Assembly: GCA_025363295.1 (NCBI GenBank)
Contig: JANYEC010000004.1
Coordinates: 1 to 64,000 of the forward strand
Direction of reading: 5' to 3'
Source of the DNA: Akkermansiaceae bacterium
GTDB taxonomy: Bacteria; Verrucomicrobiota; Verrucomicrobiia; Verrucomicrobiales; Akkermansiaceae
Length of the DNA: 64,000 nt
The translations under genes and the position numbers were made by a program. The notes below the pieces were generated by a model. That model was not told where the DNA came from. It saw nothing but the letters and a program-made list of their open reading frames with translations, and did not search any database. Positions 21,758 through 51,953 of the stretch are shown in pieces (positions within the stretch are counted from its first letter, which is position 1; each line of letters begins with the position of its first letter).

Positions 21758-22519
21758 TCACTCACCTATCAGAACCTCGACACCTTGTTCTTTTAACTTT
21801 TCGATGATCTCGGTATCCGCAGTCTGGTCCGTGATTAGGCAATTGATGTCTGCGACTTCGGCGAAGAAGAATGCGGCCTTTTGCCCAAGTTTCGAGTGAT
21901 CTGCTAGAAATACGACATCTTGCGCACTGGCGATGACTCGTTCCTTGAACGCCGCTTGGCGGGAGTTACTCTCACTTACCCCGCGTGCCAAATGCAGGCC
22001 GTTCCCGGAAAAAAACATCCGATGGATGTTGTAACGCTGCAGCGATTTTTCCGCAGTAAGTCCAATGAATGAGCGCGATTTCGGGTCGAAAAGCCCACCC
22101 GTGCAAATGAGATCGAGATTCGGGCGATCCGCGAGCGCGATGAAAACATTCAGCGCGTTGGTCAAAATCGTAAGCGGGAGGTCGGGTAAAAACTCCGTTA
22201 AAGTCAGCACGGTAGAGCTGGCATCAAGGAAAATCGTCTCATTTGCCTGAATCCGACTCGCGGCAATTTTCGCAATCGCTCGCTTTTCATCCCTCCGGAT
22301 GGCCTGGCGCTCGGTGAAGGGTAGTTCCTCACGAATCCGCTCCGGTCGGCTTGCCCCGCCGTGGATGCGGATCAATTCGCCGCGCTTCTCCAGCATTTCA
22401 AAATCCTTACGGACTGTCTCATCGGTCACCCCCAGATCATTGGCAGTCTCGATCGTGCGCAAGGTTTCTGATTGGTTCAAAAGATTCAAAATTCGGCGTT
22501 GGCGATCAATAGCGAGCAT
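21758..22519 (-). CDS. DeoR-family transcriptional repressor of the fucose locus
   Basis: A 253-aa protein from the Met at 22519 (MLAIDRQRRILNLLNQ), the normal DeoR start; the 5' extension in the ORF track lacks coding character. The N-terminal winged helix spans about 5-58, with recognition-helix region DLGVTDETVRKDFEMLEKRG. The effector domain has IFLDASSTVLTLTEFL, the usual DASST phosphosugar loop, and VFLADHSKLG near 215. DeoR proteins repress sugar catabolic genes and are released by a phosphosugar. It is divergent from the aldolase genes and a 12-nt inverted repeat lies between them, so control by fuculose- or rhamnulose-1-phosphate is a reasonable inference. Confidence 0.9.
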   Translation of the reverse strand: MLAIDRQRRILNLLNQSETLRTIETANDLGVTDETVRKDFEMLEKRGELIRIHGGASRPERIREELPFTERQAIRRDEKRAIAKIAASRIQANETIFLDASSTVLTLTEFLPDLPLTILTNALNVFIALADRPNLDLICTGGLFDPKSRSFIGLTAEKSLQRYNIHRMFFSGNGLHLARGVSESNSRQAAFKERVIASAQDVVFLADHSKLGQKAAFFFAEVADINCLITDQTADTEIIEKLKEQGVEVLIGE

Positions 22520-22566
22520 GAGATTGGGATTTTCTTTGTTTTTTTTGAAAAACTTGGTTTTTTCAG

Positions 22567-22578
22567 TTGACTTGTCAA
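22567..22578. promoter_or_regulatory. Candidate operator between deoR-type gene and aldolase genes
   Basis: TTGACTTGTCAA is an inverted repeat with TTGAC/GTCAA arms and a 2-nt spacer, located 47 nt upstream of the regulator start and 27 nt upstream of the aldolase ATG. The TTGAC could also serve as a -35 element. The surrounding 85 bp is T-rich. Assignment to the DeoR protein is inference. Confidence 0.35.
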
Positions 22579-22605
22579 TCAAATCCAACGAAACGAATTT
22601 CGCCA

Positions 22606-23388
22606 ATGACTCCAATCTTAAACCAACCCGTGCAGTCTGACACTCTAACACGCATGCTGGAGCTTTCACAACAGCTCGGTCGCGAAGATCGTCAACTCGC
22701 CATTTTGGGTGAGGGCAACACCTCGGCCCGCGTTTCCGACTCCACATTTACCGTCAAGGCCAGTGGATCGAATCTCGCCACACTGTCCGCGGTAGGAGTC
22801 ACCGAATGCCGTTTCTCCGATCTCGCCGAGCTGCTCGCGCAAGAAGGCCTCAGCGACGAAGCCATTGACGAAGCGCTCTTCGCTGCACGCGTCAATTCCC
22901 AGGCGAAAAAGCCTTCCGTTGAGGCGGTATTTCACGCGTATCTTCTGACTTTGCCGGGTGTGAATTTTGTTGGCCACACGCATCCGGTCACCGTTAATCA
23001 GGTGCTCTGCTCGAAGTTTGCCCGCCTATTTGCCACGCGCCGCACCTTTCCTGATGAAATTGTCTGCTGCGGAGTCGAGAGCGTTTTCGTTCCCTACACA
23101 GATCCGGGATTAAAACTCGCGCAAGCCATCCAGCGCGCCGTCGTCGCCTATATCGAGCGTCTCGCGCGCCCACCACGCATCATTCTTTTGGAAAATCACG
23201 GACTCATCGCCCTTGGTGCCACGCCAGAGTCCGTGCTCGCAGCCACTCTCATGGCGGCAAAGGCAGCTGAAATTTTCGTGGGCGCCACGGCGATCGGTGG
23301 CGAGCCACAATTCCTAACACCCGAGCAAGTCGAGCGCATCGCAGGCCGCCCTGACGAGCACTACCGCCAAAAAGCCCTTGGTCTCTAA
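22606..23388 (+). CDS. Class II aldolase/adducin-family protein
   Basis: A 260-aa protein from the ATG at 22606; the upstream TTG start in the track crosses the promoter. Zinc-binding GHTHPVTV is near 122 and the third His site ENHGLIALG is near 205. The N-terminal GEGNTSARVSDSTFTVKASG is the phosphate-binding region of class II aldolases such as FucA and RhaD. It probably cleaves or modifies a 1-phosphosugar of the 6-deoxyhexose pathway. It lies 24 nt upstream of the fused aldolase/SDR gene, so two aldolase domains are co-expressed. The exact substrate is not determined. Confidence 0.85.
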   Translation: MTPILNQPVQSDTLTRMLELSQQLGREDRQLAILGEGNTSARVSDSTFTVKASGSNLATLSAVGVTECRFSDLAELLAQEGLSDEAIDEALFAARVNSQAKKPSVEAVFHAYLLTLPGVNFVGHTHPVTVNQVLCSKFARLFATRRTFPDEIVCCGVESVFVPYTDPGLKLAQAIQRAVVAYIERLARPPRIILLENHGLIALGATPESVLAATLMAAKAAEIFVGATAIGGEPQFLTPEQVERIAGRPDEHYRQKALGL

Positions 23389-23412
23389 CTTTAATTTCTA
23401 ACTTATATTATC

Positions 23413-25605
23413 ATGCCAACCTACCAATACGTGAACTACCTCTGGGACGACGCAAAAGCAGCCGGACTCAGCCCTGTCGAGAGCCTCGCCTACCGTTCTA
23501 ACATGCTTGGCAGCGATCAACGCATCACCAACACCGGCGGCGGTAATACCTCGTCGAAAGCTTTTGAAACCGACCCGCTCACTGGCCAACCCGTCGAAGT
23601 CATGTGGGTCAAAGGTTCCGGCGGCGATCTACGCACCAGCACACGAGAAAATTTCTCATCACTCTATCAGAGTAAACTGCTCGATCTCCAAACTCTCTAT
23701 GCCGCACGCGCGGACAAGGGGCTCAAGTCGCCCGCTGAGGATGAGATGGTCGGCATGTACACCCATGCCACTTTCAATCTGAATCCGCGTGCTTCGTCCA
23801 TCGACACCCCGCTCCACAGTTTCATTCCGGCGAAATTTGTCGATCACATGCACCCAAACGCGATCATCGCCATCGCGGCTTCAAAAAACTGTGAGAGACT
23901 CACTCAGAAAATTTTTGCCGGCGAAATGGCCTACGTGCCATGGATGCGCCCCGGCTTCGAGCTCGGCCTTGCCATGCAGGAAATCGTGCAAAAGAACCCG
24001 ACGGTGAAGTCCATCATGATGGGCCAACACGGCTTCATTTCATGGGACGATCAAGAAAAAGCCTGCTATACCTATACTCTCGATTGCATCGAAAAAGCAG
24101 CTGCTTACATCGAGGCTAAATACGTTGCAAAGGGAGGCGATGCCACTGCATTCGGGGGTGCAAGATACACTTCCCTAACACCCGAGCAGCGCCGCGAAAC
24201 GTTGGTCGCCATCCTGCCATGGCTCCGAGGTCAAGTTTCCCAACAGAAGCGTTTCATTGGCACCGTGCAGGATGACGAGAAAATCCTGCGTTTCGTCAAC
24301 TCAAAGGACGCCGCCCGTCTCGCTGAGCTTGGCACGAGCTGCCCGGACCATTTCCTCCGCACGAAAATTAAGCCTCTCTACGTCGATTGGAATCCACAGA
24401 CCGAAGACGCCGTGACTTTAAAAAACAAGCTCGCCGCCGGACTCGATGCCTATCGGGAAGATTATGCGGAATACTATTCGCTTTGCAAACATGAGAACTC
24501 GCCCGCGATGCGCGATCCGAACCCGACGGTGGTGCTCATCCCCGGCATCGGCATGATCGCTTGGGGCAAAGATAAATCCGAGAGCCGCGTTACTGCGGAA
24601 TTCTATAACTGCGCCGTCGAGGTCATGCGGGGAGCCGAAGCGATTGATACCTATATTTCACTTCCACAACAGGAAGCATTCGATATCGAATACTGGCTAT
24701 TAGAAGAAGCCAAACTCAAGCGCATGCCTGCGGAAAAGGAGCTCGCCCGCCAAGTCATCATCGTCATCGGGGCCGGCTCTGGCATCGGCAAGGAAACCGC
24801 CCACCGCCTCGTCCGAGAAGGTGCCCACATCGTTTGTGTCGATCTCAATGAAGCCGCCGCTCAAGCCACGGCCAAGGAAATCACTGACAAGTACGGCCTC
24901 GGTATTGGCGTCGCGGGCACCGGTCTATCCGATTGCGGTCCGGCCATCGGCATCGCCGCGAACATCACCGACCGCGCTTCGATCCGGCGGATGCTCGATG
25001 ATGTTTCCATTGCTTACGGCGGTTTTGATAGTATCTGTATCACCGCCGGTATCTTTGTGCCAAGCGATACCTCCGGCCACATTCCAGATGATAAATGGGC
25101 GCTCACTTTCGGCATCAACGTCAGCGGCAGTTACTTCGTCGCTGATGAGGCCTCGAAAAATTGGAAACAGCAAGGACTCAAAGGTCAGCTTGTTCTAACA
25201 ACATCTGCCAATGCAGCGGTCGCGAAAAAAGGCTCGCTTGCCTATGACACCTCCAAAGCCGCCGCGAACCATCTCGTCCGCGAGCTTGCAATCGAGCTTT
25301 CCCCGCTCGTCCGCGTCAATGGAGTCGCCCCAGCCACCGTCGTGCAAGGGTCCGCCATGTTTCCCCGCGACCGGGTGATTGGCTCGTTGGCGAAATATGA
25401 CATCCCTTACTCGGAGCACGAGGAAACAGATTCGCTGGTGAGCAAGCTCGCGCAATTCTACGCCGACCGGACGCTCACCAAGGCCCCGATTACCCCTGCT
25501 GATCAAGCGGAAGCCTATTTCCTGTTAGTCTCCCAACGCCTCAGCAAGACTACCGGCCAAATTGTGACCGTTGACGGAGGCCTTCACGAAGCGTTTCTGC
25601 GCTAA
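23413..25605 (+). CDS. Bifunctional rhamnulose-1-phosphate aldolase / short-chain dehydrogenase
   Basis: A 730-aa fusion. Residues 1 to about 430 are a class II aldolase with GGGNTSSKAF near 37, zinc ligands in VDHMHPNAI near 140 and GQHGFISW near 200. Residues about 445-730 are an SDR with the nucleotide motif VIGAGSGIGKETA near 450 and the catalytic Tyr/Lys in YDTSKAAA near 610. This architecture is known as RhaEW: aldolase plus L-lactaldehyde dehydrogenase, described in rhamnose pathways. It would split the ketose-1-phosphate to DHAP and lactaldehyde, then oxidise lactaldehyde to lactate. The lutABC genes encoded opposite would oxidise the lactate. It is followed by an inverted repeat that may end the transcript. 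Confidence 0.92.
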   Translation: MPTYQYVNYLWDDAKAAGLSPVESLAYRSNMLGSDQRITNTGGGNTSSKAFETDPLTGQPVEVMWVKGSGGDLRTSTRENFSSLYQSKLLDLQTLYAARADKGLKSPAEDEMVGMYTHATFNLNPRASSIDTPLHSFIPAKFVDHMHPNAIIAIAASKNCERLTQKIFAGEMAYVPWMRPGFELGLAMQEIVQKNPTVKSIMMGQHGFISWDDQEKACYTYTLDCIEKAAAYIEAKYVAKGGDATAFGGARYTSLTPEQRRETLVAILPWLRGQVSQQKRFIGTVQDDEKILRFVNSKDAARLAELGTSCPDHFLRTKIKPLYVDWNPQTEDAVTLKNKLAAGLDAYREDYAEYYSLCKHENSPAMRDPNPTVVLIPGIGMIAWGKDKSESRVTAEFYNCAVEVMRGAEAIDTYISLPQQEAFDIEYWLLEEAKLKRMPAEKELARQVIIVIGAGSGIGKETAHRLVREGAHIVCVDLNEAAAQATAKEITDKYGLGIGVAGTGLSDCGPAIGIAANITDRASIRRMLDDVSIAYGGFDSICITAGIFVPSDTSGHIPDDKWALTFGINVSGSYFVADEASKNWKQQGLKGQLVLTTSANAAVAKKGSLAYDTSKAAANHLVRELAIELSPLVRVNGVAPATVVQGSAMFPRDRVIGSLAKYDIPYSEHEETDSLVSKLAQFYADRTLTKAPITPADQAEAYFLLVSQRLSKTTGQIVTVDGGLHEAFLR

Positions 25606-25622
25606 GTCAATCATTCCTATCA

Positions 25623-25663
25623 CCAACACCCGCGACTGATATTCTAACGGTATCGGGTGTTGG
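25623..25663. terminator. Inverted repeat between the converging aldolase and lut operons
   Basis: CCAACACCCG (25623-25632) and CGGGTGTTGG (25654-25663) form a perfect 10-bp stem with a 21-nt loop, between converging genes. There is no T run on either side, so classical intrinsic termination is uncertain; it may protect the 3' ends of both transcripts. Confidence 0.4.
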
Positions 25664-25758
25664 CTGTGCGAGCCCGAGACGGTCCCTTGCCCGCAACAGC
25701 CCACTCGCTTCAACAGCGGTTTTTAGGCTTAACTCCCCGCCACAACGTTTCTAACTGC

Positions 25759-26418
25759 TCAAACCATGAAAATGGTGAGGTGCTTCGGGCCGTGTGCGCC
25801 GAGCACGAGAATGCGCTCGATGTCGCCGGTGCGGCTGGGACCGGTGATAAAGGAAATCATGCTCGGATAGTTCCCGCCATATTTCTGAACTAACTGTTCA
25901 AAAGCGGTTGGCAAATCGGCCACGAGCTGCTCGCGCCGCGCGATGATGACGTGATGCGGCGGGAGGCATGACAAAGCCCGGCCACCCGCGCTGCGGCTGG
26001 TAACGAGAACTGAGCCAGTTTGCGCGACTAGCGCATCGCACTCGGTGATACCCGCGTCACATGTTGCTAGCTCTTCCTTGTCAAAGCCGGGATGGGTTAT
26101 GAGGACGGGCAAACCGAGCGATTGAGCGGTTGTGATCGATAAGTCGCCAACGTGAGCTGCGACTTTTTTCCAGCCTTCCTCATCACGCAGTGCGGCCATT
26201 TTGGTTTCCAGATCCCGCATATCCGCAACCAGCACGATATGGGCGCGGAGCTCGGCAGAATTTGCATGAAACAAGGCCATCTGCGCTTCGTGCTCCGAAC
26301 TAACCGCAGGCATGACGCCACGCTGTTCGGCCACGGTGGGTAGGCCACCTGCTAGACTATGAGCTGGCGCTTTAAGTGCTTCGCGGATGCGCTTGAAGAT
26401 GTTTTCGCGTTCGTTCAT
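25759..26418 (-). CDS. lutC: Lactate utilization protein C (LUD domain)
   Basis: A 219-aa protein. The start is the ATG at 26418, which overlaps the lutB stop by ATGA; the track start is six codons earlier. The LUD domain shows DAGITECDALVAQTGSVLV near 120, GRALSCLPPHHVIIA near 150 and the end SFITGPSRTGDIERILVLGAHGP. LutC is one of three subunits of the LutABC complex that oxidises L-lactate to pyruvate with iron-sulfur clusters. It is the last gene of the fucose operon. Confidence 0.93.
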   Translation of the reverse strand: MNERENIFKRIREALKAPAHSLAGGLPTVAEQRGVMPAVSSEHEAQMALFHANSAELRAHIVLVADMRDLETKMAALRDEEGWKKVAAHVGDLSITTAQSLGLPVLITHPGFDKEELATCDAGITECDALVAQTGSVLVTSRSAGGRALSCLPPHHVIIARREQLVADLPTAFEQLVQKYGGNYPSMISFITGPSRTGDIERILVLGAHGPKHLTIFMV

Positions 26419-27809
26419 TGGCGTTCTTTCCACCATTCCCGGAAGCTTTGGGGTGCGATCGGCGGTAGCTCACGCGTCTTGGTCCATGCGTGTGCAGGAT
26501 CGATGATGCTGCCGTTTACCAGTCCCCTCACCTTCATCCCGATGCGGCTGAGTTGGGTCGTCAGCGACCAGAGAACTCTAACATTTGCGACAGGTGCGAA
26601 CAGCTTAAAGGCGGTCTTCTGGAACAAGCTGGGTTTGAGTTTCGCCCCGTTCCGGCGATTTTGTAACAGATGGTGGTGAAGATCAATTTTCACCGGACAG
26701 GTCTCGGTGCAGGCACCGCAGAGTGATGACGCATCACTAAGATGTTTCCACTGCGTAAGGCCGCGCAAATGCGGTGTGATGACGGAACCGATCGGCCCGC
26801 CGTAGGTGGTGGAATAGGTGTGTCCACCGATGTTTTTGAAAATCGGGCAAACATTCAGACACGCGCCACAGCGGATACAGCCAAGTGCGTCACGTTGTTC
26901 GGCATCGGCTAACAGGGAGGTGCGGTGGTTGTCTAGCAGGACAACGTGAAATTCCTCCGGCCCATCGGCTTCGTCGGCTTGGCGCGGACCTCCGTACATG
27001 GTGTTATAACAGGTCAATGCTTGACCTGTGCCCATCACTGCAAGCATGGGCAAGAACAACGCAAGGTCGGTGATGCGTGGCAGAACTTTCTCGATTCCAA
27101 CCAGCGTGATCATCGTCTTGGGCAGCGCGGCTGTTAGTCGTGCATTCCCTTCGTTTTCCGTGATGGAAATCATCCCGGTCTCTGCGACGGCGAAGTTCGC
27201 CCCGGTGATTCCCACATCGGCCTGTAAATATTTTTCGCGCAACACACGGCGTGCGACCATCGTGAGGTCTTCGGGATTATCGGATGAAGTGATATGCAGT
27301 TTATCCTCGAACGTTTCTTTGATGTCGCCGCGCGTCAGGTGCATCGCGGGAAACACCAAGTGATAGGGCGCTTCCTCCCGGAGTTGGACGATGAACTCGC
27401 CGAGATCAGACTCGACCACTTCGTAGCCGGCCTCCGCCATCGCAGCGTTAAGATGAATCTCTTCCGAGGTCATCGCCTTTGATTTCACGACAACCTTGGC
27501 GTCCTTCTCGCGCAGGATGGAAAAAATGATTTCCCGCGCCTGTGCGCTGGTGCTGGCCCAATGGACCTTGGTGCCACGCGCTTCGAGTTTTGAAACGAAC
27601 TCCTCCAGATAGCGGTCCAAATGATTGACGGCTTCAAATTTAGTGCGTGCTGCTAGATTCCTCGCTCCTTCCCAATCCTGAAACCATTTCTTGCGCTGGT
27701 CCCGGACGGTTTCGTATTTACCCATCGCTGCTTGAATGATGCCGCGGTGCCGCAAGTCGGGAGCGACCCGGCCGGCGTCGGTGGTGAACTGTGAGGCGGG
27801 AGAGGTCAT
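26415..27809 (-). CDS. lutB: Lactate utilization iron-sulfur protein LutB
   Basis: A 464-aa protein. The N-terminal LUD domain contains VGITGANFAVAETGMISITENEGNARL. The C-terminal half has two CxxCxxxCP cluster motifs, CGACLNVCPIFKNIGGHTY near 313 and CGACTETCPVKIDLHHH near 364, typical of 4Fe-4S ferredoxin domains. It starts within the last codons of lutA (4-nt overlap) and ends overlapping lutC, so the three genes are translationally coupled. It is the electron-transfer core of lactate oxidation. Confidence 0.95.
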   Translation of the reverse strand: MTSPASQFTTDAGRVAPDLRHRGIIQAAMGKYETVRDQRKKWFQDWEGARNLAARTKFEAVNHLDRYLEEFVSKLEARGTKVHWASTSAQAREIIFSILREKDAKVVVKSKAMTSEEIHLNAAMAEAGYEVVESDLGEFIVQLREEAPYHLVFPAMHLTRGDIKETFEDKLHITSSDNPEDLTMVARRVLREKYLQADVGITGANFAVAETGMISITENEGNARLTAALPKTMITLVGIEKVLPRITDLALFLPMLAVMGTGQALTCYNTMYGGPRQADEADGPEEFHVVLLDNHRTSLLADAEQRDALGCIRCGACLNVCPIFKNIGGHTYSTTYGGPIGSVITPHLRGLTQWKHLSDASSLCGACTETCPVKIDLHHHLLQNRRNGAKLKPSLFQKTAFKLFAPVANVRVLWSLTTQLSRIGMKVRGLVNGSIIDPAHAWTKTRELPPIAPQSFREWWKERQ

Positions 27810-28522
27810 GCGCGGGCGAGAATTTCTGCTAGATGAATCGTCTTGAGGGGTTGACCCTGGCGGCTGGCTAAACCTTGGATCTGCATCAGGCAGCTAGAAT
27901 CGCACGAGACGATGTATTCAGTCTTCGTATCAAGCGCACTGGCGCATTTCACTTCTGCCATCGCGGTGGAAATAGCTGGGAACTTCGCCGAAAAAGTTCC
28001 GCCAAAGCCGCAGCAAGTTTCCGCCGCGTCCATTTCAACTAGTTCTAGCCCACGCACGTTTGCTAACAATTGGCGAGGTGGAAGTTTGTTGCCGAGTTCG
28101 CGCAAGCCGTGACAGCCATCGTGGAACGTGACCGTGTGGGGGAACTCTGCACCGAGATCGGTCACACCTAACTGGTTGACAAGGAATGAGGAAAATTCGT
28201 GAACCTTGGAGGCCAGCTCGGCCGCAGCCGCTTCATGTTCTGTGCCGGTGAAAAGCTCCTGATAGAAAACCTTGAGCATCGCCCCACAGGATCCGCTGGG
28301 AATCACGATGACTTCTGCATCTTTCAAATGCTCTAGAACCTTCACTGCGACTAATCGCGCTTCGTCCCAATAGCCGGAGTTGAACGCTGGTTGTCCGCAG
28401 CACGCGGGCGCGTCCGCGATGACGACTTGATGCCCCAGCTTCTCGAAGATTGTCACGAGACTAATGCCCACCTTGGGATACATCAAATCAATGAAACATG
28501 GAATGAATAATGTGATAGTCAT
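27806..28522 (-). CDS. lutA: Lactate utilization Fe-S oxidoreductase LutA
   Basis: A 238-aa protein with two cysteine-rich CCG domains (PF02754): ADAPACCGQPAFNSGYWDEA near 40 and DAAETCCGFGGTFSAKFP near 167. Such domains in LutA, GlpC and HdrB bind Fe-S clusters. It begins 7 nt after the rhamnulokinase stop, tying lactate oxidation to deoxyhexose catabolism. The length matches LutA/YkgE of other bacteria. Confidence 0.94.
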   Translation of the reverse strand: MTITLFIPCFIDLMYPKVGISLVTIFEKLGHQVVIADAPACCGQPAFNSGYWDEARLVAVKVLEHLKDAEVIVIPSGSCGAMLKVFYQELFTGTEHEAAAAELASKVHEFSSFLVNQLGVTDLGAEFPHTVTFHDGCHGLRELGNKLPPRQLLANVRGLELVEMDAAETCCGFGGTFSAKFPAISTAMAEVKCASALDTKTEYIVSCDSSCLMQIQGLASRQGQPLKTIHLAEILARA

Positions 28523-28529
28523 CTGTTAG

Positions 28530-30020
28530 CTAGCTGCGTTCACACAAATTAGAGAAAAGCCCTGCCGCATCATTCCATGCCGCTGAAGCGCCAGGCTTGT
28601 AGCGTTCCACCTCGCTGGATTTACGAACGATTTCACGCATTTCCCCAAGCGATGCTAGTTCACCATCGGCGCGGATTTGAGTGAGGATATTGCCCATCGC
28701 GGTGGCTTCTATCGGACCAGTAACGACGAGGCGTTGGCAGGCGTCCGCCGTAAACTGGTTTAGCAACGCGCTGCGAGAACCGCCGCCCACGATGTGGATG
28801 ACTTCGATTGGTTCGCAGGTGAGTTCTTCGAGCGAGGCGAGTGTTTCGCGATACTTGAGAGCGAGACTTTCATAAGCGCAACGCACCAGTTCGCCCGGCG
28901 TCTGGGGCACAGGCTGTTTCGTTTTACGGCAAAAATCTTGGATCGCTTTGGGCATGTCCGGAGGATTGAGAAACCGCGGGTCGTTGAGATTCACAATGGA
29001 GCGCAGTGGTTTTGCTAGAGCTGCCAGCGCCGCGAGTTGAGCGTAATCATATTTCTTTCCGGCTGCGTCGAAGGAGCGCTTGCATTGCTGCACGAGCCAG
29101 AGGCCCATGATGTTTTTCAAAAGTCGATACGTGCCATCAATGCCGCCTTCGTTGGTCATGTTCAACTCCAACGCACGCGGAGTCAGCACCGCCTTTTTCA
29201 ATTCAACCCCCATCAGCGACCAGGTTCCGGAGCTGATGTAAGCCCAGTTCGCCGTGCCGGTATTAGATGTTGGCACGCCGGCAATGGCGGAAGCGGTATC
29301 GTGTGACGGAGGCGCGACGACTTTCACGCCTGCTAGGCCGGTGCGTTCTGCAAGGGATTTGCGGAAGGTGCCGAGCGTGGTGCCGGGCTGGACGATTTTC
29401 GGAAGGAAATGCGTCGGCAGGCCAAGCTTATTGAGCAGCGGCAGCGACCAGTCGCGCTTGAGCGGATCCACGAACTGTGAGGTGGAGGCGATCGTAAACT
29501 CTGCACGCTTCGCACCGCACATCGCCCAATGAAAGAAGTCGGGCATGAACAGCAGAGTAGCCGTCGCCTCGAGAATGGCAGGCGACTGCTCCTGCCAAGC
29601 AAGCAATTGATAGAGCGAGTTCAACTCCATGAACTGAAGGCCGGTTTGCGCGTAGATCTCGGCGCGGGGAACTTTCTTGAAGGTCCGGGGCAAAGCGCCT
29701 CTCGTGCGGGCATCACGATAGTGGTAAGGCTGGCCGAGAATTTCCTCCTGCTTATTTAGCAGCACGAAGTCCACGCCCCAAGTGTCGGCACCAACCGAGA
29801 CAATTTGCTTACCATATATTTTCCCGGCAAGCGTTAGGCCACTTTCAATTTCTCCCCACAGCCGCAGGACGTCCCAGCGCAAACTCTCGCCGAGCATGGT
29901 CCCACCACTGGCGAAACGATGCACTTCCTCAATGCGAAGTTTTTTCCCATTCCAAATGCCTGCCATCACTCGACCGCTTTCGGCACCGAGGTCCACTGCT
30001 AGATAAACTTTTTTCGGCAT
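28530..30020 (-). CDS. rhaB: Rhamnulokinase-family FGGY sugar kinase
   Basis: A 496-aa carbohydrate kinase. The N-terminal YLAVDLGAESGRVMAG is the phosphate-1 loop with the AESGR wording typical of rhamnulokinase; FucK uses a different sequence. SVGADTWGVDFVLL and YHYRDART contain the sugar-binding Asp and Arg regions. PSHDTASAIAGVP near 242 holds the catalytic Asp, and IHIVGGGSRSALLNQFTADA near 405 is the adenosine motif. In this operon, beside fucI and fucP, it would phosphorylate L-fuculose, L-rhamnulose or both. It lies 27 nt after fucP. Substrate preference cannot be read from sequence. Confidence 0.9.
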   Translation of the reverse strand: MPKKVYLAVDLGAESGRVMAGIWNGKKLRIEEVHRFASGGTMLGESLRWDVLRLWGEIESGLTLAGKIYGKQIVSVGADTWGVDFVLLNKQEEILGQPYHYRDARTRGALPRTFKKVPRAEIYAQTGLQFMELNSLYQLLAWQEQSPAILEATATLLFMPDFFHWAMCGAKRAEFTIASTSQFVDPLKRDWSLPLLNKLGLPTHFLPKIVQPGTTLGTFRKSLAERTGLAGVKVVAPPSHDTASAIAGVPTSNTGTANWAYISSGTWSLMGVELKKAVLTPRALELNMTNEGGIDGTYRLLKNIMGLWLVQQCKRSFDAAGKKYDYAQLAALAALAKPLRSIVNLNDPRFLNPPDMPKAIQDFCRKTKQPVPQTPGELVRCAYESLALKYRETLASLEELTCEPIEVIHIVGGGSRSALLNQFTADACQRLVVTGPIEATAMGNILTQIRADGELASLGEMREIVRKSSEVERYKPGASAAWNDAAGLFSNLCERS

Positions 30021-30047
30021 ATGACGAACGATTCGACAAAATAAAAA

Positions 30048-31610
30048 TCAATGCCCGCCTGTGCTTTTAAGTCCGCGCACCCCTTCCGATTGACTCAACT
30101 TTGACCAGTTAAATCCATACAAAGCGACTGCGAGAAAGCAGATGAGTGGAACAATAAAGCCAGCGGACATGCCGTGTTGGTCGGCAATGTGGCCCATCAG
30201 TTTTGGCATGATGGCGCCGCCCATGATCGCCATAACGATGAAGGAGGATGCCTTTTTTGCGCGGCCACCCAAGCCGTGAATACCGAGCGAGAAAATAGTC
30301 GGAAACATGATGGACATAAAAAAATAACTTAGGAACAAGGCGATCGCCGAAAGCCAACCAAGCTTGAGGAAAACCAACAGACTGCAAACGGCGGCGAGGC
30401 TCGCAAACAATGCTAGTATGTTATGGGCGGAATATTTTTTCAACAGACCCGCACCAATGAAACGACCGGCGAGGAAAAAACCAAAGCCCACGGAAGCGAG
30501 GGTAGAGGCTCCCTTATCGCTCAGCCCCATGATGCCGTTTTTGTGAATCTCAAACCACTGGCCGAATGATCCCGCTTTCCATGCCTCCGGAATCGCAGGG
30601 ATCTGCGAGGTCATGTAGTTGATGAAATATGCGAAGACGCCGCACTGGGCCGCGACATAAAAGAACTGAGTGAGTGTGGCTCCTGAGAAATGCGGGTGGC
30701 TCCAGATACTATGATGGGTAATCTTACTTTTAGATTGTGCAAAGATGATAGAGCCGATCACTAATAGAATTCCAGAAGCATACCAGAGCGCCTGATTTTC
30801 GCTCAAGCCGACGGTCTTGGAAACCGATGGAATGGCAACAAAGGCCGAGATGATCATCCCGATCGCGACGGATAGAACGACGATATTCAGCCACAACAAG
30901 GTCAGAGCGGCGCCACGGTTAGTGGATGGGGAAGCAGCAACAGATTCATCTGAGTCGTCGAGGTGGAACTCATCCTCCGACTTGATGTCCGGAAGCTTGC
31001 AGAATGAGAAAACAATCGCGAGAACAAGGACGAATCCGCCGATGGCTGCGTATGGAATCCAAAGTGTTTCAGAGCCGGTACTTTTGCCAGTGGCATCCTG
31101 ACCGTAGAAGAACTGGGCTCCGGCGATGGGACCGAAGATCCAACCGATGCCATTGCAGGATTGTGCTAGATTAATCCGAGTGGCCGCAAATTGTTTTGGC
31201 CCGAGGACGGTGGTATAAGGGTTAGCGATGGTTTCTAAAAATGTTAGACCAGATGCGATGAGGCAAACGCCAAGAAGGAAGGCCGGGAATGTGGCAATTT
31301 TCGTCGCGGGAATGAACCAAAATCCACCGACAGCCACCATCAGCAGGCCCACGATGATTCCGCTCTTGTATCCCATTTTGCTAGCGAGCCAACCGGCGGG
31401 CATGGCCATGAGAAAATAACCGAGATAGTGGGCGAACTGAACCCATGCGGATTGGGCAAGTGTAAGGTGCAGTTCCTTTTGAAAGTGCTTGTCCATTACG
31501 TCAATCATCCCGTTGCAGAAACCCCAGAGGAGAAACAACGAACTAACGAGGGCGAAAGTAACAACATAGCTCTTACCGGTAGGTGAGGTAAAAATTCCGA
31601 GTTTGATCAT
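30048..31610 (-). CDS. fucP: L-fucose:H+ symporter, MFS family
   Basis: A 520-aa transporter with about 12 hydrophobic segments. Residues match FucP landmarks: FLWGFCNGMIDVMDKHFQ contains the Asp equivalent to E. coli FucP Asp46. FLETIANPYTTVLGP contains the Glu equivalent to Glu135, followed by TRINLAQSCNGIGWIFG. The C-terminal MFPTIFSLGIHGLGGRAKKASSFIVM is also conserved. It is longer than E. coli FucP (about 438 aa) because of central loops, one with an acidic EDEFHLDDSDES stretch. It imports fucose across the inner membrane and lies 195 nt downstream of fucI. Confidence 0.92.
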   Translation of the reverse strand: MIKLGIFTSPTGKSYVVTFALVSSLFLLWGFCNGMIDVMDKHFQKELHLTLAQSAWVQFAHYLGYFLMAMPAGWLASKMGYKSGIIVGLLMVAVGGFWFIPATKIATFPAFLLGVCLIASGLTFLETIANPYTTVLGPKQFAATRINLAQSCNGIGWIFGPIAGAQFFYGQDATGKSTGSETLWIPYAAIGGFVLVLAIVFSFCKLPDIKSEDEFHLDDSDESVAASPSTNRGAALTLLWLNIVVLSVAIGMIISAFVAIPSVSKTVGLSENQALWYASGILLVIGSIIFAQSKSKITHHSIWSHPHFSGATLTQFFYVAAQCGVFAYFINYMTSQIPAIPEAWKAGSFGQWFEIHKNGIMGLSDKGASTLASVGFGFFLAGRFIGAGLLKKYSAHNILALFASLAAVCSLLVFLKLGWLSAIALFLSYFFMSIMFPTIFSLGIHGLGGRAKKASSFIVMAIMGGAIMPKLMGHIADQHGMSAGFIVPLICFLAVALYGFNWSKLSQSEGVRGLKSTGGH

Positions 31611-31805
31611 GGCAATTTGGATTTTAAGGGTTGGGATATGACTGCTACAGATGTAAGAAAGTGGCTAAATATTAAATCTGATCTTTTTAAAAAACCTCCA
31701 TGGTTTCGCCAAAAACAAGCATGATCCAGCCATTGAAACAACTCGTAAAGAAGATCGCCAAAGTAAGTGTGATGTGATGGTCCATACCCGTGAAGAAAAG
31801 ACAAT

Positions 31806-33611
31806 TTAATGGTTAGCTTTTCCATACAGCGGGCCGTAATTCGCGCATGCGCGGAAATCAGCGCCTTCGAGATCAGCGGTTCCGAAGGAGGTCCAAGCAC
31901 TCGGCCGGAAGATGCGATCTTCTCTAACATTATGCATATAAACTGGGATGCGGAGCATCGATGCGAGCGTCAGATAGAGATGACCGACGTGGCCACAGGT
32001 CATCACACAGTGGTTGGCTCCCCAATGGTTCATCACTTCGTAAGCGCTGGTGAAGGCTCCTTTGCCCGTGAGGATCGGCGCGAACCAGGTGGTCGGCCAA
32101 GTCGGATTCGTGCGTTGGTCGAGCGCATGATGCACGTCTTGCGGAAGCTCCACGGTGTAGCCTTCCGCGACTTGAAGCACGGGGCCAATGCCACCGACAA
32201 GATTGAGACGGATCATCGTGGCTGGCATGCCGCCGCGGGTGCTGTAACGGGTGCTGAGGCCACCGCCAGGGAAATATTCGCTGATGGACGGGTGCCAGGT
32301 GGTGGCCTTTAAACACTTTTCCACTTCCGCATCCGAGATCTCCCAGAACGGCTTCATAATAGGCGTGCCATCGGCCGCTTGCTGCTCCCCGGTGCCGTCG
32401 AGCGCGGCAGGGCCGGAGTTGATCAGGTGAAGAATACCATCCCCGACGAGCGGGTGACTCACCTTTTTTCCACTAGCGGTTTCGATCGCTTCTAGACTCC
32501 AATAGGTGCGGAGATCTGCGAAGATCTGCGCGGTGTTCGTAAGTAGGTGACCAAAAAGCATGCCCGCGCCATTGAGCGCGTCATTCTCGGTGGCGACGAT
32601 GTAGGGGGCTCGCTTTCCATTCCAATCGAAAGAGGAATTAAGGATCGCTTCGAGGAAATCGCCGTTAGGAAAATGGTCCGTCCACTGGCGCTGGCCTTGG
32701 AAGCCTGCGGCAATTGCGTTGTGACCATGGGCCTGCTCACCCAGTCCCATTTCCGCGAGGTTGGGGTTTCCCACCATGAGGTCACGCGCGATCAGTGCCA
32801 TTTTTACACTGTCCTCCCATTCCTTGTCGATCTCTTCGCGGCTGCGAGTGGTGGTGGAGGAGTTGTAGTCTTTTCCTTCTGGGCAATTTTGTTTTACCCA
32901 TGCGAGGGCCTTTTCATATTCGGCGTGATCGTATTGCCCTTTGCTCATACGACCTACGAATTCTGTCATGTCGATGGCCTCCACCCGCATGCCTAACCAC
33001 TTTTCCCAAAACGCGGAATCGATGACAGAACCAGCGATGCCCATGGAGGTGCCGCCCATCGAGAGGTAGCTTTTGCCGCGCATCAGAGCGACGGATAGTC
33101 CGCAACGGACAAACGAAAGCAGCTTGTGGCGGACGTCAGCGGGGATTTCGGTGTCGGTGGATGATTGCACATCTTTACCGTAGATCCCGAAGGCGGGCAG
33201 TCCTTTCTGGGTGTGACCGGCGAGCACGGCTGCTAGATACACTGCGCCCGGCCGCTCAGTGCCGTTAAACCCCCAGACGGCCTTAGGTAGATGCGGATCC
33301 ATGTCCATCGTCTCCGAGCCATAACACCAGCATGGAGTAACGGTTAGAGAAACTCCGACATTGGACAGTCTGAATTTTTCCGCGCATGCGGCGGCTTCTT
33401 TCACCCCACCGATGCATGTATCGGCGATGACGCATTCTACAGGCGTGCCATCTGGGTAGCGAAGCTCAGCCGCGATCAACTCTGCGACCGCGCGGGCTTG
33501 TAGCATGGTGCGCGCTTCCAAGGATTCACGGACGCCGCCGAGACGGCCATCGATCGTTGGTCGAATACCGATTTTAGGAAAATAACTGTTAGTCACGACC
33601 GGATTCATCAC
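31806..33611 (-). CDS. fucI: L-fucose isomerase
   Basis: A 601-aa Mn-dependent aldose-ketose isomerase converting L-fucose to L-fuculose. The N-terminal [21 protein letters not shown] and [15 protein letters not shown] are typical of FucI. The metal-site region [16 protein letters not shown] is near 345, and the late His motif [16 protein letters not shown] is near 550. Length matches the roughly 591-aa E. coli enzyme. It follows the fucosidase gene by 9 nt. D-arabinose activity is common in this family. Confidence 0.96.
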
Positions 33612-47860: not shown

Positions 47861-48862
47861 TCAGCGCGTCGCAGCAGGTAGCCACGCCCTAGCTCCGGTG
47901 CTTCTCTCGGGAGCTGCTTTGAAGAATCCCTCCAAGCCTCGGCGACCGTGGAGATCCGCCACGGCATCCACCGTGCGCGCCCAACGCCAGCGGAAGCCGG
48001 CATCGCGCAGTCTCACCGGATCAGCCCAACGGCTTTTCGTCACCAGCTCGGTCTCCGTGCCCATCAACCGCGCTCCGATTTCTAACATCCACTTCGCCGC
48101 AGGCAGGCCGATCGGCATCCCCACCGCCTCTCGGAATGTTTTCATCCACTCACGATTGGTGGGAAACTCCGGTGCCGTGACGTTAATTGTTCCGTCGAGA
48201 AATGCATCATTAATGGCGAATTCCACCGCTCTCAAAAAATCCTCCATGTGGATCCAACTGATCCGCTGATTGCCCGATCCCATCGCGCCACCCAATCCAC
48301 GAGCGGTAAGTTTCCTGAGCACATCATAGACCGTCCCCTCCTCGTTCGCCAGGACCATGCCGATGCGTAGAGCGAGCTTTCTCGTTTCCGCAGGCACGTT
48401 CGCATTAAAAAACGCATCCTCCCACGCTTGGGCGACTTCGCAGGAAAATCCCTCCCCCGGCTCACCCAGCCAATCGTTCTGCGGCTGATCTTCCGCATGG
48501 CGATACCACGTCGCCGTGCTCGCATTCAGCCAGGTTTTCGGCGGCGTTTTGCAAGCGGCGATCGCCTGACCGATCGCCCGGGTGGCAGCCACCCGTGAAT
48601 CGACAATTTCACACCGATTTTTCGCAGTGTAACGGCAATTCACACTCCGGCCTGATAGATTGATGACGGCCTCCGCCCCCTCCAGAGCGAGCGCCCACGG
48701 GCCGAGCGTTTTACCGTCCCATTCTAAAAACATTCCATCCCCATTCCAGCCTTCCCGACTGCGGGCGATCGCCACCACCTCCTTACCCCGGCGGGCAAAG
48801 TGGCGGCATAAGTAACGGCCAAGGAATCCGTTGGCTCCGAAGATGACGATGATAGGATTCAT
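47861..48862 (-). CDS. TIGR01777-family NAD-dependent epimerase
   Basis: A 333-aa protein from the ATG at 48862, which has an AAGGA ribosome site 8-10 nt upstream; the track extension lies in the promoter. The Rossmann motif is IVIFGANGFLGRYLCRHFA, followed by AVINLSGRSVNCRYTAKNRCEIVDSRV, typical of the YfcH/SDR39U1 group. ISWIHMEDFLRAVEFAI and the INVTAPEFPTNREWMKTF block are also conserved. Biochemical function is unknown in most relatives. An inverted repeat matching one upstream of the adjacent GbsR-type regulator lies 39 nt before the start codon, so the regulator likely controls it. Confidence 0.92.
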   Translation of the reverse strand: MNPIIVIFGANGFLGRYLCRHFARRGKEVVAIARSREGWNGDGMFLEWDGKTLGPWALALEGAEAVINLSGRSVNCRYTAKNRCEIVDSRVAATRAIGQAIAACKTPPKTWLNASTATWYRHAEDQPQNDWLGEPGEGFSCEVAQAWEDAFFNANVPAETRKLALRIGMVLANEEGTVYDVLRKLTARGLGGAMGSGNQRISWIHMEDFLRAVEFAINDAFLDGTINVTAPEFPTNREWMKTFREAVGMPIGLPAAKWMLEIGARLMGTETELVTKSRWADPVRLRDAGFRWRWARTVDAVADLHGRRGLEGFFKAAPERSTGARAWLPAATR

Positions 48863-48900: not shown

Positions 48901-48926
48901 GATCTTTCAGGAATTTCTGAAAGATC
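48901..48926 (-). promoter_or_regulatory. Operator-like palindrome upstream of the epimerase gene
   Basis: GATCTTTCAG-GAATTT-CTGAAAGATC is a perfect 10-bp inverted repeat with a 6-nt centre. Its core TTTCAG-N6-CTGAAA recurs exactly at 49467-49484 in front of the neighbouring regulator gene. It is not followed by a T run on the minus strand, so it is not a terminator of the regulator gene. It is read as a binding site in the epimerase promoter. Confidence 0.65.
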
Positions 48927-48942
48927 AATTGAAATTTTTTTG

Positions 48943-49464
48943 TTAGCCGAGCAGTTTTGTGGCCAATTGAATTGCAAATCCATGCTTCATTGACGCGATT
49001 CTATCAGACATTTTGGACGCGAATCCGACGAAGTCTTCCAGCGCCCGCATCTGATCATGGAAGACTTTGCCCTCGGGTGTCTGGATACCTTCGCTTTCGC
49101 CAGCACACTTGCTGAGAATGGCCAATGCTGGCTCGATCTCGCGGCGTTTCCGCTCGCGGGCGACGATCGTGAAAATGAGCCAAACATCCTTTTCCGCCTC
49201 GAAAAACTCGCGCCGCTCGCCTTTTTTCACCACCGGTCGAATCAGTCCCCAAGCGACCAACTCTTTGAGATTCGTGTGAGCGTTGCCTCGGCTGATTTCG
49301 AGTTCCTCCATCACGTCGTCCGTCGTCAGCGGCTGCGGAGCCGTCATCAATAACGCGTGAATCTGAGCCATCGTCCGGTTGATCCCCCACTGCGTACCGA
49401 GTGCACCCCATTGGGCCACGAATTCGTCCCTCGCACGCTTCAATTTTTCCTCTTCCGCAATCAC
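48943..49464 (-). CDS. GbsR/MarR-like winged-helix regulator
   Basis: A 173-aa protein from the GTG at 49464, chosen because the track start is a weak TTG and the 5' extension would bury the operator inside the gene. It reads AEEEKLKRARDEFVAQWGALGTQWGINRTMAQIHALLMT, then the winged helix LTTDDVMEELEISRGNAHTNLKELVAWGLIRPVVKKGERREFFEAE. This is the GbsR family signature (WG-x-x-WG-x-x-R-T-x-x-Q-I-x-A-L-L). Known members repress choline or osmolyte genes. It is likely autoregulated, because an inverted repeat sits 3 nt before the start, and it likely controls the adjacent epimerase. Confidence 0.88.
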   Translation of the reverse strand: MIAEEEKLKRARDEFVAQWGALGTQWGINRTMAQIHALLMTAPQPLTTDDVMEELEISRGNAHTNLKELVAWGLIRPVVKKGERREFFEAEKDVWLIFTIVARERKRREIEPALAILSKCAGESEGIQTPEGKVFHDQMRALEDFVGFASKMSDRIASMKHGFAIQLATKLLG

Positions 49465-49466
49465 AA

Positions 49467-49484
49467 TTTCAGCAAATACTGAAA
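49467..49484 (-). promoter_or_regulatory. Operator-like palindrome upstream of the GbsR-type gene
   Basis: TTTCAG-CAAATA-CTGAAA shares its arms and 6-nt spacing with the palindrome before the epimerase gene. It is directly upstream of the GTG start, where a repressor would block initiation. Confidence 0.6.
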
Positions 49485-49638
49485 ATTCAAAAACACAAGC
49501 GAGAATTGAAAATATAACACAATCCGCTTTGGCCTGCGTTTTGCTACTACAAGTGACGAACAAGACACCTAAATGGATGTGGAAATCGTGGCTGACGGGT
49601 CAATGCTCCCATCAATTCCAAAGTATAATAACATCATC

Positions 49639-51953
49639 ATGAACTTACCTCCTACTATAATAAACACGGGCAGGCTCTCGAAGCTGGCTCATTGGAAGCG
49701 GGCGCTACTCGCGAGTTTCTTGGTGCTAATCGGCGGCTATTTCGCTCCGGCCTCCGCCCAAACAACCCTCGCGAAATGGACATTCGAGACATCCGCCCCA
49801 ACCACGGCAGGTCCTCTTACGCCTGAGTTGGGTGCAGGTTCCGCGAGCTCTAACACCGGCGGCACCTTTTCGAGTCTTAGTGGATGGGGAAGTGCCAAAT
49901 CTTGGTCGTCGAATGGCTGGGCTCCCGGCGAATATTTCCAATTTCAATCCAGTTCCACCACCTTCTCAGGCATCACCGTCAGTTGGCAACAGGTCGGCAG
50001 TAGTACGGGGCCAAAGAATTATCAGCTTCAATACAGCACTGATGGTATTAACTTCACTACCCACGCAGCCTACGCCGTGAATTTAGGTAGTGGAACACGA
50101 CCTTATCTCCGCCTGCAGACCAATATTCCTATGATCTTTCCGCCGTTACGAGCCTGAACAATGCTGCGAATGTCTATTTCCGCCTCAAGGTGGTAGATAC
50201 TGTGTCGATTAATAACGGTACTGTCTCAGGTGCTGGCACGGGGAGAGTTGACAATTTCACCATTTCGACCGGACCGCCTCCTGGTACCCCGGTCATCTCC
50301 GTAGCCTCCTCCTTACCGGCTTTTTCCGCGTTTTTCGGGTTCCCTTCGGCCTCTCAAAGTTTCGTGGTCACGGGCACCAACTTGACGACAACGATTACGC
50401 TTGCCGCGCCTACAGGATTTGAAGTCTCAAGTGACAACCTCGCTTTCAGCAGTTCTGCCAGCCTACCCGTAACGGGTGGCACCGGGTATGTTCGGGTTGC
50501 CTCCACTGCTGCCCTCGGCCCGATCTCTGGTGTTGTCACGCTTTCCAGCACGGGCGCGGTTGACAAAACCATCGGACTCACGGGAACCGTTACTGATCCG
50601 AATGTTTTGAGCTTGGCTTTTGCGCCAACATCCCTTCCTGAAAATTCTGCAACGCCAGCGGTCGGCACGATTTCCATCCCGCGTGCAAGAGCCAGTGATC
50701 TGGTAGTCACTCTTGTTAGTGCGAATACTGCGGCTGTGACGGTTCCGGCAAGCGCCACGATCACTGCTGGCAACTTGACGGCCACCTTCGATGCGACTGC
50801 GGTAGCGGCTCCATCAAGTTTCATCACCAATAGTTCTCTCATTACCGCCAGTGCTGTTGGATTGACCGATGGAACCGCGACTTTGCAGGTGACCAATGTT
50901 GACGTCGCCCCGATCGTAAGTGTCTCCCTACTCGCTAACACTCCGTATCTTCAGAATTTTGATAATCTCGGCACCACCGCGCTAACAAATGTTGTTTCCG
51001 CCACTATCGGTAGTCAGACCAATATCGGTCCTTTGACTAACGCCTCTCTAAATGGTTGGTATGCTACCAAAATCGCAGGAGATGGTTCTTCAGCCACCTC
51101 GATTTCTCCTGACACCGGCACGGGAACCAGTGGATTAGTCAACAATTACGGTGCGGCGGCGGCCACAGACCGCGCATTGGGTGTGCTTGCTTCGAGTAGT
51201 AACATCATGGCGATTGGAGCCCTGATCAAAAACGACACGGGGGGAACCCTGACCGGCCTCAGTCTATCGATGACTGCCGAGTTCTGGCGCAGTTCGACGC
51301 TAACACAGAATACTTTGACTTTCGGATACGGTAAAATCGCCGGTGCCATTACTTCAGCGAATTTCCTGTCGTCTTCGGGCACCGGAGTATTGCCCCTCTC
51401 TGGCGCGAATATTGTCGGGCCAGCGTTTGGCGCTTCCAGTGCCGCACTTGACGGTAACAACGCTACCAATCAGACTGCTTTCACCAATGTTTCCCTACCA
51501 TTGACCCTCCTGCCCGGTGAGTCCGCCTTTATTCGGTGGCAGGATACTAACGACAACGGTAACGATGCAGGATTGGCCATCGATAACCTTACGATCAATG
51601 GTGTCGGTTCTGCCCCGAGCAACACCTACTCCACTTGGGCGACCACCAATACTGGCAGCGCTAGCTCCCCTGTATCTGGGGATCATGACAACGACGGCGT
51701 GTCTAACGGACTTGAGTATTTCATGGGAGCTACGGGTTCCACCTTCACGGCGAATCCTGGCACTGTGGGTGGCAAAATCACGTGGCCAAAAGATCCTGCG
51801 TTCCTCGGCACCTACACCGTACAAACATCGCCTAACCTAACGGCTTGGACGTCGGTCACTTCGACAGTGGTGGGAAATACCGTCGAATACACCCCCACCG
51901 GGTCGGCCCCGCTTTTCATTAGGATGTCCGTCACTCCGACTCTTAATCCTTGA
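49639..51953 (+). pseudogene. Frameshifted secreted surface protein of Verrucomicrobia type
   Basis: Two ORFs (49639-50157 and 50190-51953) belong to one gene of about 770 codons. From the ATG at 49639 a signal peptide ends GGYFAPASAQ, followed by a beta-sandwich with WTFETSAPTTAGP. The frame breaks near 50089-50091. One base lost there would join NLG to WNTTLSPPADQYSYDL, continuing AVTSLNNAANVYFRLKVVD in the next frame. The second part holds Ig-like, Calx-beta-like repeats (LPENSATPAVGTISIPRA) and a nuclease/phosphoesterase-like secreted domain (YLQNFDNLG). It ends in a calcium-type DHDNDGVSNGLEYFMG module with a C-terminal beta-domain. It is a pseudogene, phase-variable gene or sequence error. 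Confidence 0.75.

Follow-up and report, generated by a model that had tools for sequence, protein, structure and literature searches.

GbsR-type regulators and their operators

CydE of Alishewanella sp. WH16-1 is a GbsR-type repressor of the cytochrome bd operon cydEAB, and one of its two binding sites, the DNase footprint TATTTCAGAAATTTCTGAAAGTTCA that was confirmed by EMSA, contains TTTCAGAAATTTCTGAAA (PMC6096048). A further GbsR-type regulator of cytochrome bd, CioR of Chromobacterium violaceum, represses its own operon cioRAB (PMC11837568). In Bacillus subtilis, GbsR acts as a roadblock downstream of the transcription start site and OpcR acts by promoter occlusion (PMC7396694), and the structure 1KU9 has served as a template for GbsR models (PMC6207618).

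The locus considered here lies in a 64,000-nucleotide stretch of DNA (the window, which is the whole stretch that was analyzed) and carries twin palindromes at and just behind the gene of such a regulator. Very probably these are real DNA-binding sites, and the GbsR-type regulator would use them to control its own gene together with a neighboring enzyme gene. More specifically, we infer binding and repression by the adjacent CydE-like regulator at both palindromes, with the first operator serving autorepression and the second blocking read-through, a reading to which we assign a probability of about 0.86. The uniqueness of the motif in the genome, its conservation among relatives, the CydE footprint, the geometry of the promoter, the GbsR-family fold of the regulator, unlinked sites ahead of functionally related genes and the precedents of CioR and B. 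subtilis GbsR were all counted in its favor. Weighed against it were the weak -10 in the window, the loci that lack site 1 or site 2 and the potential hairpin at operator 2.

CydE and the regulator in the window belong to the same family, each is the first gene of its operon with a site in its own promoter, and the CydE footprint contains TTTCAG-N6-CTGAAA, as does the window locus. CydE differs in that it controls cytochrome bd and is reportedly released by sulfate, whereas the neighbor in the window is a TIGR01777 epimerase; the window locus also has a second operator between the genes, and the second footprinted site of CydE is unlike the palindrome. CioR, too, is a GbsR-type autorepressor encoded by the first gene of its own operon, but it controls cytochrome bd, and the part of its report that is accessible gives no operator motif (PMC11837568). 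The B. subtilis proteins are likewise GbsR-family repressors that act on AT-rich inverted repeats, by the modes proposed below for site 2 (GbsR) and site 1 (OpcR), but their repeats have another sequence and spacing (GbsR half-sites are 4 bp apart), GbsR is choline-responsive, and the target genes concern osmoprotectants.

Because the CydE footprint holds the same palindrome, this operator type is already known for a GbsR-type regulator, which supports the shared-operator model and confines what is new to the regulon and the promoter layout. The original prediction had described the sites of the family as poorly known; they are not wholly unknown, since the TTTCAG-N6-CTGAAA type has been footprinted once, with CydE.

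The regulator–epimerase locus

The regulator gene (48943..49464, minus strand) begins with GTG and encodes a 173-aa GbsR-type protein of the MarR superfamily, P0001. The next gene on the same strand (47861..48862) begins with ATG and encodes P0002, a TIGR01777-family SDR epimerase/oxidoreductase of 333 aa that scores 221 bits against TIGR01777, above the curated cut-off of 207.35, and 59.3 bits against Pfam Epimerase. The two genes are consecutive, and 80 bp separate the regulator stop at 48943 from the epimerase ATG at 48862. Putative operator 1, TTTCAG-CAAATA-CTGAAA, occupies 49467..49484 and ends 2 bp before the regulator GTG; putative operator 2, GATCTTTCAG-GAATTT-CTGAAAGATC, occupies 48901..48926 within the gap, 16 bp from the regulator stop and 38 bp from the epimerase ATG. 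Two copies of TTTCAG-N6-CTGAAA with identical arms and spacing had been predicted, and both are present, the second with perfect 10-bp arms.

P0001 matches Pfam MarR_2 with 34.8 bits and, by alignment profile, PDB entry 1KU9 (Mj223 of Methanocaldococcus jannaschii) with an E-value of 1e-16. Its AlphaFold2 model (pLDDT 88.8) shows a winged helix-turn-helix and long C-terminal helices, and 1KU9 is also the best PDB fold found for that model by Foldseek (E 1.4e-8, TM 0.57/0.64), such that Mj223 is the best structural as well as the best profile match. P0001 thus has the architecture of the GbsR family, comprising an N-terminal winged helix-turn-helix, a linker and a Mj223-like C-terminal helical dimerization domain. 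A feature of the CydE/CioR sub-group that is known for CydE, a TTTCAG-N6-CTGAAA operator in the regulator's own promoter, is found at 49467–49484. An assignment as the choline-responsive GbsR/CudC equivalog was rejected (NF047500 CudC, 46.9 bits against a cut-off of 218), and the open reading frames neighboring the regulator include no betaine or Opu genes. No cydAB or cydDC genes were found among the open reading frames around the regulator or among the downstream genes of relatives.

Conservation of the palindromes

A homolog search covered 145 genomes of Akkermansiaceae, 132 of which have an ortholog or homolog of the regulator, and 88 orthologous loci were read. The group is Akkermansiaceae given that contigs named Luteolibacter, Haloferula, Roseibacillus and Rubritalea encode close relatives. 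The palindrome, allowing at most two mismatches, stands directly before the regulator start codon in 86 of the 88 family loci and is exact in 43, so that the comparison of upstream regions proposed with the original prediction bears it out. Site 1 is absent from L041, L095, L213, L215, L217 and L221; most of the other verrucomicrobial loci read, from other families (L210–L229), also keep the palindrome. A second copy is found in the first 80 bp past the regulator stop in 62 of the 88 loci, whichever gene comes next, and it is missing where the epimerase begins only 11–20 bp past the regulator (L033, L034, L041, L042 and L044).

Beyond this phylum, TTTCAG-N6-CTGAAA is found at the regulator start in proteobacterial homologs that neighbor cydAB or cydDC, in Rhizobium, Microvirga, Chelatococcus and Pseudochrobactrum. 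A different set of homologs, among them those of Burkholderia and Methylobacterium and Akkermansia-like ones, has the variant TTTCTG-N6-CAGAAA. In Burkholderia (L232) this variant occurs at the regulator start, in imperfect form, and again 49 bp past the stop, with an epimerase-like gene behind it; the arrangement is that of the window, built with the variant palindrome.

Two smaller observations concern the variant. L264, like L232 a Burkholderia plasmid locus, has a TTTCTG-N6-CAGAAA-like palindrome at the start of its GbsR-type regulator gene. In the Akkermansia-like genus g3 the regulator is missing in many genomes, and distant homologs (for example L098, L099 and L248–L251) have TTTCTG-N6-CAGAAA.

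A putative operator embedded in the predicted regulator promoter

At site 1 the palindrome and the predicted promoter overlap. Of the 86 loci, 83 have the trinucleotide TTG at the -35 place, compared with a background of 10 per cent, and it is mostly separated by 16–18 bp from a -10-like hexamer that coincides with palindrome positions 9–14. All 86 relatives have T at position 14 and position 13 varies, the -10 forms of relatives being AATACT, TTTACT or TAAAAT. In the window, the predicted -35 element TTGTGT (49493..49498, minus strand) lies 16 bp upstream of a predicted -10 element within operator 1, TTTGCT (49471..49476, minus strand); this -10 is a weak match, and its placement follows from palindrome positions 13 and 14 in relatives.

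The distance from the end of the palindrome to the regulator start codon is 0–8 bp in 85 of 86 loci, usually 3 bp, and Shine-Dalgarno-like sequence is nearly absent at these starts. From a sigma-70 promoter laid out in this manner the transcript is expected to begin at the start codon or a few bases from it. Given that the start codon follows so closely behind the embedded -10, the regulator mRNA is expected to have little or no leader; a literature search on leaderless mRNA in Verrucomicrobia found no report.

The regulator would bind the palindromes as a dimer through its winged helix-turn-helix, with one half-site per arm. Since operator 1 overlaps the predicted -10 of the sigma-70 promoter that serves the regulator gene, a dimer bound there would shut out RNA polymerase, and a -10 within the palindrome with the start codon so few base pairs on would imply autorepression of a nearly leaderless mRNA.

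The second palindrome between the genes

Operator 2 probably acts as a roadblock on the operon, by analogy with GbsR of B. subtilis. Regulator bound there would stop polymerase arriving from the upstream regulator promoter and so limit the epimerase, which would then be the main regulated output.

Operator 2 might instead govern a separate internal promoter of the epimerase gene. In several groups the distance from the regulator stop to site 2 varies although the site still precedes the following gene, and unlinked targets carry their own promoter at the site, both of which would suit such a promoter. However, site 2 has no -35 element at the expected place, where TTG occurs in 5 of 62 loci and the mean hexamer match is at background, and we regard an internal promoter as rather unlikely.

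It is also conceivable that operator 2 works as an RNA hairpin (a terminator, attenuator or processing site) and not as a protein-binding site. The window copy lies directly past the regulator stop and could form a stable hairpin of 12 bp (-16.3 kcal/mol, z -3.58). In relatives, however, the arms are short, left-arm position 6 is relaxed and position 13 is nearly fixed, being C in 58 of 62 loci; the two positions pair in 30 of the 62 (26 G-C and 4 G-T) and are unpaired in 32, without compensatory change. This unconserved pairing favors a protein site. The coding strand moreover has no terminator-like U-tract downstream, and the sequence of operator 2 matches that of operator 1. A hairpin function is accordingly improbable, and its terminator form was rejected for want of a U-tract and of covariation. 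Looping between the two operators was likewise rejected, the spacing of 555–612 bp being without helical phasing (R about 0.15).

The identity of the binding regulator

The linkage of the palindromes to the adjacent GbsR-type gene would be incidental if a different regulator bound them. Binding by P0001 is a prediction from sequence, isolated exact sites also lie at a distance from the regulator gene, and in a few genomes of the family the site is present without a close ortholog. Nevertheless, the palindrome accompanies the regulator gene in different families and phyla despite changing neighbors (epimerase, DCC1-like, cydAB and cydDC), and CydE has been shown to bind it (PMC6096048).

A candidate specificity residue points in the same direction. 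Ser58 caps the N-terminus of the predicted recognition helix (residues 59–72 of the AlphaFold2 model). Residue 58 is Ser in 181 of the 183 rows whose operators are of the TTTCAG form and Ala in all 23 rows with TTTCTG; near-duplicates are among these rows. A tree of 91 rows with less redundancy showed only about two changes at residue 58 and four changes of operator, and L226 and L228 are exceptions to the correlation. Because the independent changes are so few and these exceptions exist, the residue is a lead and not proof, and its standing as a proven specificity determinant was rejected. Taken with the tracking and the CydE footprint, binding by another regulator is very improbable.

Rarity of the motif and extent of the regulon

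The 3,483,252-bp genome has two exact copies of the motif, both at the regulator–epimerase locus, and no copy of the reversed control pattern. The genome-wide search suggested with the original prediction thus returned the two locus copies and nothing else, so that the refuting condition, abundance of the motif in unrelated coding DNA, does not hold. By the composition of the window, 0.12 exact copies per genome would be expected by chance. In a tally across 141 family genomes, about 188 exact copies were found against about 30 of the reversed control. Short inverted repeats are common, yet a chance origin of these palindromes in AT-rich intergenic DNA is refuted by their conservation and can be dismissed, the probability of the exact motif in both of two given 80-bp regions being about 8e-12 at window composition.

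In the window genome the site adjoins just two genes. Copies with one mismatch do not exceed background there (7 compared with 12 for the control), and most copies of the looser motif TTTCA-N8-TGAAA lack the inner bases (CAG/CTG) and the A/T core, so only these two genes are supported, and a wider regulon, for which both motifs gave scattered sites alone, was rejected. The genome's sole DCC1-like gene has no operator.

Among relatives the genes that follow the regulator at the linked locus are TIGR01777, small membrane protein, DCC1-like, SRPBCC or desaturase-like genes. DCC1-like genes of related genomes also have the operator in front of them, several with the same promoter layout (L100–L102, L104, L106, L111 and L112). 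Rubritalea-like and g9 genomes (L281–L300) have an enlarged predicted regulon, with 4–7 exact sites each, mostly intergenic, that adjoin genes for DCC1-like, DUF2071, SRPBCC, SDR, TetR_C_23 and polyprenyl synthetase proteins and a 310-aa membrane protein. As predicted from the placement of sites, the regulon is one of TIGR01777 epimerase, DCC1-like, SRPBCC, DUF2071, desaturase-like and small membrane proteins and not of cytochrome bd, and membrane, lipid and redox functions appear to be its common theme. A literature search on COG1510 regulons found no report. A light or singlet-oxygen regulon, suggested by the types of gene and by the literature, was set aside as unsupported.

We tentatively propose, at less than even odds, that a CydE-like branch of GbsR proteins reads a single palindrome from Proteobacteria to Verrucomicrobiota (as TTTCTG where residue 58 is Ala), and that in Akkermansiaceae it serves a previously undescribed, coherent membrane/lipid/redox regulon (TIGR01777, DCC1-like, SRPBCC, DUF2071, SDR, desaturase-like and polyprenyl synthase genes) by means of leaderless promoters with an embedded operator and an intercistronic roadblock operator. 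No new kind of mechanism is revealed by this. The locus does show that an operator footprinted once in Alishewanella is kept in more than one phylum, and a residue that may set its specificity is at hand. Many GbsR-type regulators gain a testable operator and regulon beyond osmoprotection and cytochrome bd, and a way opens to the function of TIGR01777, DCC1-like and DUF2071 proteins, which are widespread but obscure.

Two further features of the window were noted. Divergent from the regulator, the plus-strand open reading frames at 49573–50157 and 50190–51953 resemble one frameshift-interrupted gene for a secreted repeat-type protein. At 21758–33611 there is an apparent catabolic cluster for deoxysugars of the fucose/rhamnose type, with isomerase, kinase, aldolase-type, lactate-utilization-type and transporter genes.
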